Positions 31,378-58,983 of a DNA stretch of 64,000 nucleotides are shown piece by piece. Source of the DNA: Streptomyces meridianus (GTDB lineage Bacteria; Actinomycetota; Actinomycetes; Streptomycetales; Streptomycetaceae); assembly GCF_023703325.1 (NCBI RefSeq), contig NZ_JAMQGM010000029.1, forward strand, positions 1 to 64,000. The letters are read 5' to 3'. Within the stretch, counting starts at the first letter, position 1; each line of letters opens with the position of its first letter. The translations under genes were made by a program, and so were the position numbers. The notes beneath the pieces were generated by a model that was not told the origin of the DNA, searched no databases, and saw nothing but the letters and a program-made list of their open reading frames with translations.

Positions 31378-32583
31378 TCAGCGGCCGGCCGGTACCGGAG
31401 TCCGCTGCGCATCCGGGCGGACGTCGTCCGCCGTGCGGCTGCGGGCCGTCCCGGCGGGGTCCTTCCGGAAGGCCCACTCCATCCTGGGCTCCATCGCGAA
31501 CCGGAACATCCGCTGGACGGGCGGGGTGCACAGGGACGTCACCAAGGCGGCCGCGAAGACCGTCAGGGCGATCATGCCGTCGGCCGTGTGCAGCCACGGC
31601 AGCTCGTACCAGTCCCAGAACCGCGAGCCCTTGGCGAGGAAACCGTGCAGCAGATAGCCGTACAGGGTGCCTGCGCCGAGTGCGGTGAACCACATGGTCC
31701 GCTTCGGCACCCAGACGAAGAAGCACGCGGCCAGAAGCGTCGAGCAACCGAAGAGGGCGAGCGTCATGAGTCCGCCGGTCCAGGCCGGGGCGCCGAGTTC
31801 CTGGGCGCTGTCGCGCTTGTAGAACCAGGCGGCGTTCATGCGCGGCGCGGCCCAGTAGGCGAAGAGCAGCGCGCCGGAAATCACCGGCAGGGAGAGGAGT
31901 TTGGCCTCGCGGCGGCGCAGCAGCTGAAAATGCTCGGGCTTCAGTACGAGACCGAGGACGAAGAACGGCATGAACTGCAGCACGCGCTGCAGATCGAGAT
32001 CGTCACCGATGTCCGGTGACACTGCGGCGAGTACGGCAATCGCCAGCGCGAGCGGAACGGGCCACCGGGCGATTTTCCACAACGGTGTGGACAGCCGCCA
32101 GACGACCAGCGCGACCAGGAACCAGGTGAGATACCACGGATCGAGAAGGCTGATCGGATACGTGGGGTCGTCGTTCGCCACCCGTTTGAACAGCGTGTAC
32201 GCCACCTCGAAGATGATGTACGGCACCGCAACGCCCGTGATCAGGCGCTTCAGCTGAGCCGGCCTCGCGGTGAAGCTGCGCGAGAAGTAGCCGGAGATGA
32301 TGATGAACGCCGGCATGTGAAAGGCGTAGACGAAGATGTAGAGCGCGGCAGCGGTGCGGCTTCCGTCCCTCAGCGGTTCCCACGCGTGACCGCAGGCGAC
32401 GAGGGCGATCGCCAGGTACTTGGCATTGTCGAAGAAGGGGTCCCGTTCCTTGGGTCTGCCCGTCTCCGGTGATCCGGCCCTGCTGTTCTCGGCGTTACCG
32501 CCTCTTTCCTCGTTCCGTGCGGACGCGTCTCCGGCCGGCTGACTCTCCGGGGACTTCCGGCTGTGAAGTGAGGCACTCGTCAT
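31378..32583 (-). CDS. Membrane acyltransferase, family 3 (fucose 4-O-acetylase-like)
   Basis: Integral membrane O-acyltransferase of 401 aa with about ten helices. The N-terminal hallmark is FFDNAKYLAIALVACGHAWE with the catalytic-type His, then AFHMPAFIIISGYFSRSF. A polar, Ser/Glu-rich stretch of 50 residues precedes it. Members acetylate sugars or cell-surface polymers using acyl-CoA. ATG 32583 has GAGGG 6 bases upstream; the longer in-frame extension into the spacer has no coding character. Substrate unknown; it stands alone. Confidence 0.88.
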   Translation of the reverse strand: MTSASLHSRKSPESQPAGDASARNEERGGNAENSRAGSPETGRPKERDPFFDNAKYLAIALVACGHAWEPLRDGSRTAAALYIFVYAFHMPAFIIISGYFSRSFTARPAQLKRLITGVAVPYIIFEVAYTLFKRVANDDPTYPISLLDPWYLTWFLVALVVWRLSTPLWKIARWPVPLALAIAVLAAVSPDIGDDLDLQRVLQFMPFFVLGLVLKPEHFQLLRRREAKLLSLPVISGALLFAYWAAPRMNAAWFYKRDSAQELGAPAWTGGLMTLALFGCSTLLAACFFVWVPKRTMWFTALGAGTLYGYLLHGFLAKGSRFWDWYELPWLHTADGMIALTVFAAALVTSLCTPPVQRMFRFAMEPRMEWAFRKDPAGTARSRTADDVRPDAQRTPVPAGR

Positions 32584-57465: not shown

Positions 57466-57723
57466 GTGCCGAAGTCACGGATCCGCAAGAAGGCCGACTT
57501 CACCCCGCCTCCGGCGAAGCAGGCCACCAATGTGAATCTGAATGCGGGCCGCAACTGGGTGGCGCCGCTGATGCTGGCGCTCTTCCTCATCGGGCTCGCC
57601 TGGATCGTGGTCTTCTACGTCACCACCGGTGACATGCCGGTCGGAGCGCTCGGCAACTGGAACATCGTGGTCGGGTTCGGCTTCATCGCCGGGGGATTTG
57701 TCGTCTCCACGCAGTGGAAGTAG
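57466..57723 (+). CDS. crgA: Cell division regulator CrgA
   Basis: Small membrane protein of 85 aa with two helices (about 31-52 and 65-82). [16 protein letters not shown] and the GNWN...[16 protein letters not shown] end match CrgA, which in Streptomyces delays FtsZ ring formation in aerial hyphae and in mycobacteria recruits divisome proteins. GTG 57466 follows AGGAGAG. Its presence beside ftsW, pbpA and pknB is the conserved order. Confidence 0.95.
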
Positions 57724-57770: not shown

Positions 57771-57968
57771 TTGTCCACACGGTTATCCACAGCAGGGGAA
57801 AAGGTCGGAAGATCTGTGGATAACCCAACGCTCGGTTGACGCCGGTGATACTGGTCATACGGTCCGCTCGACGTGATCAACCCGGTCTCCCTTGGGAAAC
57901 CGCAGATCCGTGCGATTGTGCACACGTTCCCCACGTCATGCACAAGATCCGGGAACGGCTGTGGACAA
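57771..57968. promoter_or_regulatory. Cluster of five DnaA-box-like sites
   Basis: TTGTCCACA at 57771-57779 (+) and 57960-57968 (-), TTATCCACA at 57783-57791 (+) and 57815-57823 (-), and TTGTGCACA at 57916-57924 (+). All lie in the 285-base space between convergent crgA and rhomboid genes, which contains no promoter need. dnaA and dnaN are not nearby, so this is not oriC; a DnaA-titrating or replication-control site is likely. Confidence 0.75.
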
Positions 57969-58008: not shown

Positions 58009-58905
58009 TCAGCCCGTGAGCTGAAGCGTCCGGAGGACCACCACGACGACGACCACCAGCAGGGCCGCCGCACAGGTCGCGCGCTGCACCGCCACCCGGT
58101 GTCCCCGGGGCGCGTGCACCATGCCGAAGGCGACCGCCGCACCGACCACCAGGCCGCCCACGTGGGCCTGCCAGGAGATCTGGCTGCCGGGGAAGAACGT
58201 GAAGGCCAGATTGATCGCCAGCAGGACGAACACGGGCCGCATGTCCTGCCGCATCCGCCGCAGCAGCACGGCCATCGCGCCGAACAGCCCGTACACCGCG
58301 CCCGAGGCGCCGAGGGACGGCTGGTTCGGATCGGCCAGCAGATAGGCCAGCGCCGAACCCCCCAACCCCGAGAGCAGGTAGAGGGCGAGGTAGCGGGACC
58401 GTCCCAGGGCGGCCTCCAACGGGCCGCCGAGCCACCACAGCGCCAGCATGTTGAACGCGATGTGCATCGGCTGCTCGTGCAGGAACGCCGAGGTCAGCAG
58501 CCGGTACCACTGGCCCTCGGCGACACCCTCCACGCCTGAGGGGGTCAGCGCCCGGCCGAACAGGTCCAGATCGCGCACGAGGCGGTCGCCCACCACCATG
58601 ACCGCGACCCAGACGGCGATGTTGATGCCGAGCAGAACCTTGGTGACCAGCCGGGGGTCGGCGCTGACGACACCGCCCGCGACCGTCCGCGGCCGCATCG
58701 ACTCCGGTGCCGGACCCGTACCGCCCCCGTCGCGCACGCAGTCCGGACACTGGAACCCGACCGAGGCGCTGACCATGCACTCCGGGCAGATCGGCCGCTC
58801 GCAACGCGTGCAGCTGATCCCGGTGGCCCGGTCCGGGTGGCGGTAACAGCCGGGGGGACCGCCTGCCGCCGCGTGGTCCCCCGCACTCCCTGGCACCTGG
58901 TCCAT
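58009..58905 (-). CDS. Rhomboid family intramembrane protease with zinc-binding N terminus
   Basis: Protein of 298 aa. Residues 20-56 hold eight zinc ligands (Cys20, His23, Cys32, Cys35, Cys40, Cys43, Cys53, Cys56), a B-box-like module. Six or seven helices follow; the serine protease pair is Ser201 in LGASGAVYGLFG and His248 in WQAHVGGLVVG. It cleaves membrane proteins within the bilayer; targets unknown. ATG 58905 has GAAGAGGG 5 bases upstream and is preferred over ATG 58923. Downstream of the cyclophilin gene. Confidence 0.92.
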   Translation of the reverse strand: MDQVPGSAGDHAAAGGPPGCYRHPDRATGISCTRCERPICPECMVSASVGFQCPDCVRDGGGTGPAPESMRPRTVAGGVVSADPRLVTKVLLGINIAVWVAVMVVGDRLVRDLDLFGRALTPSGVEGVAEGQWYRLLTSAFLHEQPMHIAFNMLALWWLGGPLEAALGRSRYLALYLLSGLGGSALAYLLADPNQPSLGASGAVYGLFGAMAVLLRRMRQDMRPVFVLLAINLAFTFFPGSQISWQAHVGGLVVGAAVAFGMVHAPRGHRVAVQRATCAAALLVVVVVVVLRTLQLTG

Positions 58906-58983
58906 CAGTCCCTCTTCTCCCATCCGGCCCGCGGCCGCTGTCGGAGCGCACGGGCCACCGGGCGGCTCCCCGGACGCACCACG

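Follow-up and report, generated by a model that had tools for sequence, protein, structure and literature searches.

According to two reviews (PMC5742627 and PMC4585315), the DnaA-box clusters of Streptomyces coelicolor repress untimely initiation of replication, the clusters of Bacillus subtilis are named alongside them in the same role, and one of the two accounts places both sets close to oriC. The DARS sites of Escherichia coli, as described in PMC5742627, lie between oriC and terC and share one spacing, with box I opposed to boxes II and III. In the MG1655 genome, where the map positions of that review and the boxes themselves locate them, the cores of both DARS1 and DARS2 read + -14- minus -12- minus (the strand of each box and the step, in nt, to the next). 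Little is known of how actinobacteria keep initiation to a single round in each cycle. To our knowledge, no equivalent of Hda, SeqA or datA has been established in these bacteria. Three DnaA-box clusters of S. coelicolor, H69, H24 and D78, were reportedly described by Smulczyk-Krawczyszyn in 2006, and deletion of D78 is said to have raised initiation.

DnaA boxes between crgA and a rhomboid gene

The window, the whole stretch of DNA that was analyzed, covers 64,000 nt of one contig of the Streptomyces meridianus genome, and within it crgA and a rhomboid protease gene converge on a gap of 285 bases (Table 1). A preliminary description had placed five DnaA boxes, in both orientations, between these two genes. 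The placement was confirmed by the open reading frames and by the Pfam matches to CrgA and Rhomboid, and all five boxes were found again (A, B, C and D, and a one-mismatch box between C and D). Nevertheless, the list was incomplete: it overlooked the degenerate box B', which completes a conserved triad with A and B and is the counterpart of the minus box in the class-wide triad described below, and it lacked both the conserved GTTGACGCCGGT motif that follows box C and the degenerate minus box E. The fourth box of that list, TTGTGCACA, exists but has no recurring position in other loci. Scored as a triad, the window copy carries 2 mismatches, with steps of 12 and 11 nt.

Table 1. Features of the crgA–rhomboid gap and its two neighboring genes in the S. 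meridianus window.
Feature	Position	Strand	Basis
crgA (85 aa), neighbor 5' of the element	57466..57723	+	ORF; Pfam CrgA, E 5.2e-29
DnaA box A, TTGTCCACA, triad box 1	57771..57779	+	Box scan; triad score
DnaA box B, TTATCCACA, triad box 2, 12 nt from A	57783..57791	+	Box scan; triad score
Degenerate DnaA box B' (TTTTCCCCT), triad box 3, 11 nt from B	57794..57802	-	Triad score
GATC directly before, and abutting, box C	57811..57814		In 140/146 Streptomyces loci
DnaA box C, TTATCCACA	57815..57823	-	Inverted pair with A or B, 146/149 loci
Non-DnaA motif GTTGACGCCGGTGATAC (commonest genus form GTTGACGCCGGTGTGAC)	57835..57851	+	Conserved consensus
TTGTGCACA (one mismatch), fourth box of the preliminary description	57916..57924	+	Position not conserved
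Degenerate DnaA box E, TTGTGCATG (top strand CATGCACAA)	57937..57945	-	Conserved; GATC one base on
DnaA box D, TTGTCCACA	57960..57968	-	Box scan; strict minus box beyond C, 133/146
Rhomboid protease gene, convergent neighbor	58009..58923	-	ORF; Pfam Rhomboid, E 1.1e-40

The DnaA-box cluster is not a product of chance. The window contains 15 boxes that match TTGTCCACA exactly or with one mismatch, compared with a mean of 5.9 and a maximum of 12 in 100 shuffles of it, and simple arithmetic gives an expectation of about 0.02 for five boxes in 198 bases. Across the whole genome (5.64 Mb in 93 contigs) the pattern TTRTCCACA occurs 33 times and a reversed control pattern 10 times; four of the 33 copies fall within the crgA–rhomboid gap, inside those 198 bases. 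Elsewhere in the window, a second triad-like group (score 5) is present at 2844-2874, around a consensus box at 2866, and two one-mismatch DnaA boxes face each other, 13 nt apart, at 32073-32094.

The preliminary description had also taken the cluster to lie far from dnaA and dnaN, which is wrong. Both dnaA (C22:84275-86230, C22 being the contig that carries the cluster) and the dnaN open reading frame (82288-83472) are on the same contig, and the oriC gap between them (C22:83473-84274) is about 26 kb from the cluster. The idea that the cluster is itself oriC, or an autonomous origin, was rejected, the dnaA–dnaN gap being elsewhere. No TTRTCCACA is found in the oriC gap of S. meridianus, which has ten one-mismatch boxes instead; the crgA–rhomboid gap, with its four copies, presents several consensus boxes outside yet near oriC. 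This closeness recurs: crgA and dnaA are 20-40 kb apart in all eight Streptomyces genomes, 15-38 kb apart in six of six other Streptomycetaceae and 14-56 kb apart in seven of the eight tested genomes of other families with a triad at crgA (one of the seven distances assumes a circular contig). In the eighth, G234, crgA is about 131 kb from dnaA if the contig is circular.

Further groups of consensus DnaA boxes occur on the opposite side of oriC (C22:119043-119131, 168596-169110 and 171463-171781). A similar four-box group, which may be the D78 cluster, is found 114 kb from crgA here; in the complete genomes G121 and G008, whose groups are among the matches listed, the distances from crgA are about 104 and 107 kb. 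At dnaA itself, all eight Streptomyces loci (L217-L224) carry, on the far side of dnaA from the oriC boxes and perhaps in the dnaA promoter, one consensus TTGTCCACA with a one-mismatch box at a distance of 12 nt; they have at most one consensus box in the covered part of the dnaA–dnaN gap. S. meridianus has no strict box on that side of dnaA.

Conservation in Streptomyces and across the class

Comparison of the region downstream of crgA among relatives, which the preliminary description had proposed, found the boxes kept. CrgA is present in 149 of 150 genomes of the genus, and all 149 loci were scanned; 146 of them contain an inverted pair, defined as a strict plus and a strict minus box no more than 80 bases apart in the first 600 bases after crgA. 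The exceptions are L093 and L128, which have no box, and L153, which has one. An inverted pair also occurs in every one of 80 named loci of the genome collection, nearly all from Streptomyces. Among other Streptomycetaceae, 51 genomes were found and 32 loci analyzed, of which 30 have such a pair. A rhomboid-like sequence is present in 146 of the 149 Streptomyces loci. The usual Streptomyces order is A (+), B (+, 12-13 nt on and often degenerate), C (-) and D (-), with a start-to-start offset of 20 or 21 nt from box C to the TTGAC of the GTTGACGCCGGT motif (128 of 146 loci) and with the degenerate minus box E (TTGTGCAT) shortly ahead of box D; a loose pattern for box E, resembling TGCACAAGAT and no more than 600 nt from the crgA stop, was matched in 97 of 149 loci. 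A conservation profile was built on 132 of the 146 loci. The DNA between the boxes is variable, and the boxes, their order and their spacing are kept.

The distance between boxes C and D, which is 145 nt in the window, falls at 145-150 nt in 96 of the 133 loci that have a strict box D and at 155-161 nt in 26, the remaining 11 values being 115, 135, 136, 136, 137, 143, 167, 169, 180, 191 and 267. Helical phasing was assessed in these 133 of the 146 loci, with a midpoint-rooted tree of all 146 from which 16 independent pairs differing by at least 5 were taken. Changes in the C–D distance favor a period of 10.5 nt, with a mean cosine of 0.53 (p about 0.001 under uniform phase). As a control, the stretch between the crgA stop and box C (52 pairs) gave a mean cosine of 0.12 at 10.5 and itself leans toward 11, with 0.26. 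This is evidence of moderate strength for a complex that would bridge boxes C and D. Helical phasing between A/B and C does not count toward this evidence, which uses the C–D distance alone, because a tandem arrangement of boxes every 12-13 nt gives the same steps.

To extend the comparison beyond the genus, 59 genomes of the class were drawn, of which four belonged to the same genus and were dropped; the 55 that remained represent 28 families, and all of them encode CrgA and had their crgA 3' flank read. The recurring arrangement there is a triad of a plus box, a second plus box 12-13 nt on and a minus box a further 10-11 nt on. The first 250 bases after crgA were searched for + -13- + -10- minus or its mirror, with each step allowed to vary within 1-2 nt and mismatches counted over 27 positions. 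Triads with at most five mismatches were found in 47 of 55 genomes and 23 of 28 families, 33 in one orientation and 14 in the mirror orientation, with steps of 13 and 10 in 36 of them; the eight misses scored 6, 7, 8, 10, 10, 11, 11 and 11. None of 275 shuffles of the crgA-flank stretches scored below 7 mismatches, and among 339 pieces of real flanking DNA one scored 5 and the remainder at least 8. The box variants were fixed after the sequences had been viewed, making these numbers somewhat favorable, and the controls used the same set. By the same threshold, 130 of 149 loci from Streptomyces and 28 of 32 from other Streptomycetaceae contain the triad, while the shuffle control covered the stretches from the other families. 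Kept at one spot in most of the actinobacterial families sampled, the core triad is probably an old switch in the control of chromosome copying.

A sequence-only model built from 24 elements was searched in 56 genomes with stricter filters. Its 27 top matches, each from a different genome and with E no higher than 1.9e-10, are without exception in the 3' flank of crgA; 24 of them are members of the model and three are not. The genome of S. meridianus gave no match to the model, because its form of the element has diverged. In three of the eight genomes that missed the triad at crgA, weaker model matches, rather than a blind scan, led to a triad with 3-4 mismatches at a rhomboid 3' end (G222 of family f22, 3; G203 of f3, 4; G237 of f21, 4); in these genomes crgA is 1.8 kb beyond it or at another place. 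From dnaA, the displaced element is about 10 kb away in G237 and about 46 kb in G222. Counting these, 50 of 55 genomes, from 25 of 28 families, have a triad at the crgA or the rhomboid end; the other five genomes showed none in the crgA flank, the one stretch read there. Conversely, no rhomboid match was obtained in nine loci that carry the triad and for which 1.5 kb of sequence downstream was available, so that either neighboring gene can be lost, and the rhomboid-end elements indicate that the element tracks a place near oriC rather than crgA alone. The suggestion of a replication–division link, made because the neighboring crgA times septation, draws weak support from position, further weakened by the three genomes with the element at the rhomboid 3' end.

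Two further observations concern individual genomes. In family f21 (L228, L229 and L232, from genomes of 1.3-1.4 Mb) the crgA flank is without a triad in three of three cases, one of them being G237 with its rhomboid-end triad. A second triad with 2 mismatches (L372, G239:C9:489109) lies 16 kb from the crgA triad of the same genome.

The palindrome and the Streptomyces motif

Outside the Streptomycetaceae, a palindrome of the form TTACAC-NN-GTGTAA (consensus GAATTACACCGGTGTnATTC) often abuts the triad, its right arm running into the first triad box. This class-wide form is an inverted repeat that is very variable between families, and many of its copies are imperfect. Two strict searches proved too strict to count the palindrome family: one gave six distinct sites, four of them at crgA, in five of 12 genomes, and the other, which used another strict form, had matches in 7 of 55 crgA flanks.

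The palindrome is also present in nrdR–nrdJ promoters, where it adjoins DnaA-box-like sequences. Among 20 extra sites picked for reading (18 weaker model matches and two palindrome hits), 13 have nrdR just downstream (L353-L361, L363, L364, L370 and L371) and one further site has nrdJ (L362), all in other families; lexA is near in three of these loci. In five of the 14 nrdR/nrdJ loci the palindrome is flanked by two NrdR-box-like 10-mers, defined by a pattern of our own, exactly 31 nt apart. In the published geometry of the NrdR box (PMC9110341), GC pairs are conserved at 9/18 and again at 40/49, a step of 31 nt. NrdR boxes were dropped as a candidate at crgA, where inspection by eye revealed no 31-nt pair.

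Streptomyces loci carry their own motif on the opposite side of the boxes relative to the palindrome. In one comparison by eye, its commonest form, GTTGACGCCGGTGTGAC, and the palindrome copy of L189, TGACACCGGTGTCAT, are alike at 12 of 15 bases, and homology of the motif to the class-wide palindrome is likely on this basis. Except for one base, the Streptomyces TTGAC-N6-GTGAC matches the MtrA site [GT]T[GA]ACC-N5-GT[GT]AC (Zhang 2017, PMC5650626), and MtrA binds oriC, dnaA and dnaN in S. venezuelae (PMC5487470). With the C at position 6 ignored, 82 of 149 loci have the MtrA pattern, on either strand, at most 400 nt from the crgA stop; there is none in the window, whose copy has lost the right half-site. 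A promoter role for the TTGAC motif was rejected, as TANNNT follows at a spacer of 16-19 nt in just 2 of 130 loci. A BldD site, whose consensus we take to be nTnACnC[AT]GnGTnAn, was compared with the motif and set aside as a weak lead, the center of the motif being one base too wide. Between the motif and box D, a hairpin, perhaps a terminator for the convergent genes, has a z score below -2 in 91 of 133 loci (mononucleotide shuffles). The corresponding hairpin of the window, at about 57850-57950, is weak (z -1.3).

Candidate roles and comparison with known systems

The reading that we favor, with confidence only modestly on its side, is that the crgA–rhomboid gap contains an ancient, origin-proximal control element that would hold DnaA away from oriC after initiation. 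DnaA would bind the triad A-B-B', together with the additional Streptomyces boxes C, E and D, to form a compact complex. Because the site is a few tens of kb from oriC and has better boxes than oriC, it would be copied just after initiation, and its two copies would then take up DnaA, lower the free DnaA and help to block re-initiation. We infer here that consensus boxes bind DnaA better and that the net effect on initiation is negative. The neighboring palindrome would recruit a second factor. A pure sink would not need a fixed order and phase, and these features suggest that the complex may do more than bind, for example by changing the nucleotide state of DnaA in either direction. The alternatives of titration or reactivation, offered in the preliminary description, still frame the best reading of boxes that are conserved across genus and class, even though the distance to oriC had been misjudged.

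Reactivation in the manner of DARS, with ADP-DnaA gathering on the triad, losing its ADP and leaving as ATP-DnaA to promote initiation, would make good use of a fixed triad that exceeds the needs of a sink, and the box order and the II–III step are those of DARS1 and DARS2 or close to them. It is an unlikely explanation all the same: the I–II step is shorter than in both E. coli sites, the element is near oriC rather than between oriC and terC, and the S. coelicolor clusters are reported to be repressive in PMC5742627 and PMC4585315. By mere inheritance, the boxes would persist as a relic because they are in a rarely rearranged stretch next to oriC. Although crgA does stay near dnaA in most of the genomes tested, boxes, order and spacing are kept amid intervening DNA that varies, neither shuffles nor flanks match the triad, and its fixed spacing speaks against such a relic, which we regard as highly improbable. 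A local role, in which the boxes would act as a DnaA roadblock or a terminator between the convergent genes and tune crgA expression, fits the usual position at the crgA 3' end and the hairpin scores of many Streptomyces loci. It fits poorly with the three genomes whose element has the rhomboid 3' end, instead of crgA, as its neighbor, with a partner gene that changes (the nine triad loci lacking a rhomboid match), with the near absence of TANNNT after TTGAC and with the weak hairpin of the window, and we consider it very unlikely.

The palindrome raises the further prospect of coupling to nucleotide supply or another signal, with a second regulator occupying it, as at the nrdR–nrdJ promoter, and gating DnaA; for Streptomyces, MtrA is one candidate. 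In favor, many other families have the palindrome directly against the triad, and it is found upstream of nrdR in 13 of the 20 chosen sites and of nrdJ in a fourteenth, and TTGAC-N6-GTGAC departs by one base from the site of a protein that, in S. venezuelae, binds oriC, dnaA and dnaN. However, the MtrA pattern is confined to 82 of 149 loci and is absent from the window copy, the class-wide form is an inverted and not a direct repeat that varies much between families, and the homology of motif and palindrome comes from a single visual comparison (12 of 15 bases), so that this coupling seems quite unlikely as the main explanation.

A bolder account is put forward tentatively and remains doubtful in its full extent. 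It would see at rhomboid–crgA an Actinomycetia-specific DnaA control element near oriC that combines a DARS-like triad with a palindrome common to the nrdR–nrdJ promoter; one regulator reading both palindromes would couple DnaA availability to dNTP synthesis, and Streptomyces would have added helically phased boxes. Should the palindrome have one reader, a link between initiator control and nucleotide supply would become directly testable. In any case, an element of fixed geometry at the crgA or rhomboid end of 50 of 55 genomes from other families offers one defined site to delete, footprint or move.

In the literature searched, which was mostly without subscription papers, we found neither the class-wide triad and its geometry nor the nrdR–nrdJ link, and co-mentions of DnaA boxes and crgA were confined to reference lists or to oriC boxes; the novelty of the class-wide triad is provisional, because most subscription papers lay outside that search. 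For H69, H24 and D78 in particular, the same literature yielded no triad, conservation beyond Streptomyces, palindrome or spacing rule of the kind described here.

Among the E. coli systems, datA is likewise a DnaA-box cluster in an intergenic region. It represses initiation, its function depends on spacing and it needs IHF at a defined site between its boxes, which stimulates the hydrolysis of ATP bound to DnaA. With DARS1 and DARS2 the crgA triad shares a three-box core in which one box is opposed to two (57771-57802 in the window), and the II–III step, 12 nt in both DARS sites, is 12-13 nt in the triad and 12 nt in the window. The I–II step differs, at 14 nt in DARS1 and DARS2 and mostly 10-11 nt in the crgA triad (12 in 4 of 47 and 11 in the window), as does the location, about 26 kb from oriC in the window compared with a position between oriC and terC for DARS. 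The crgA triad is DARS-like in order but, on spacing and location, is not classed as a DARS. Closest to it are the clusters of S. coelicolor itself: crgA (SCO3854) is reportedly on cosmid H69, and the cluster described here is probably H69. Like H69, H24 and D78, it is a group of consensus boxes outside but near oriC, and the Streptomyces cluster is probably one already described for S. coelicolor.
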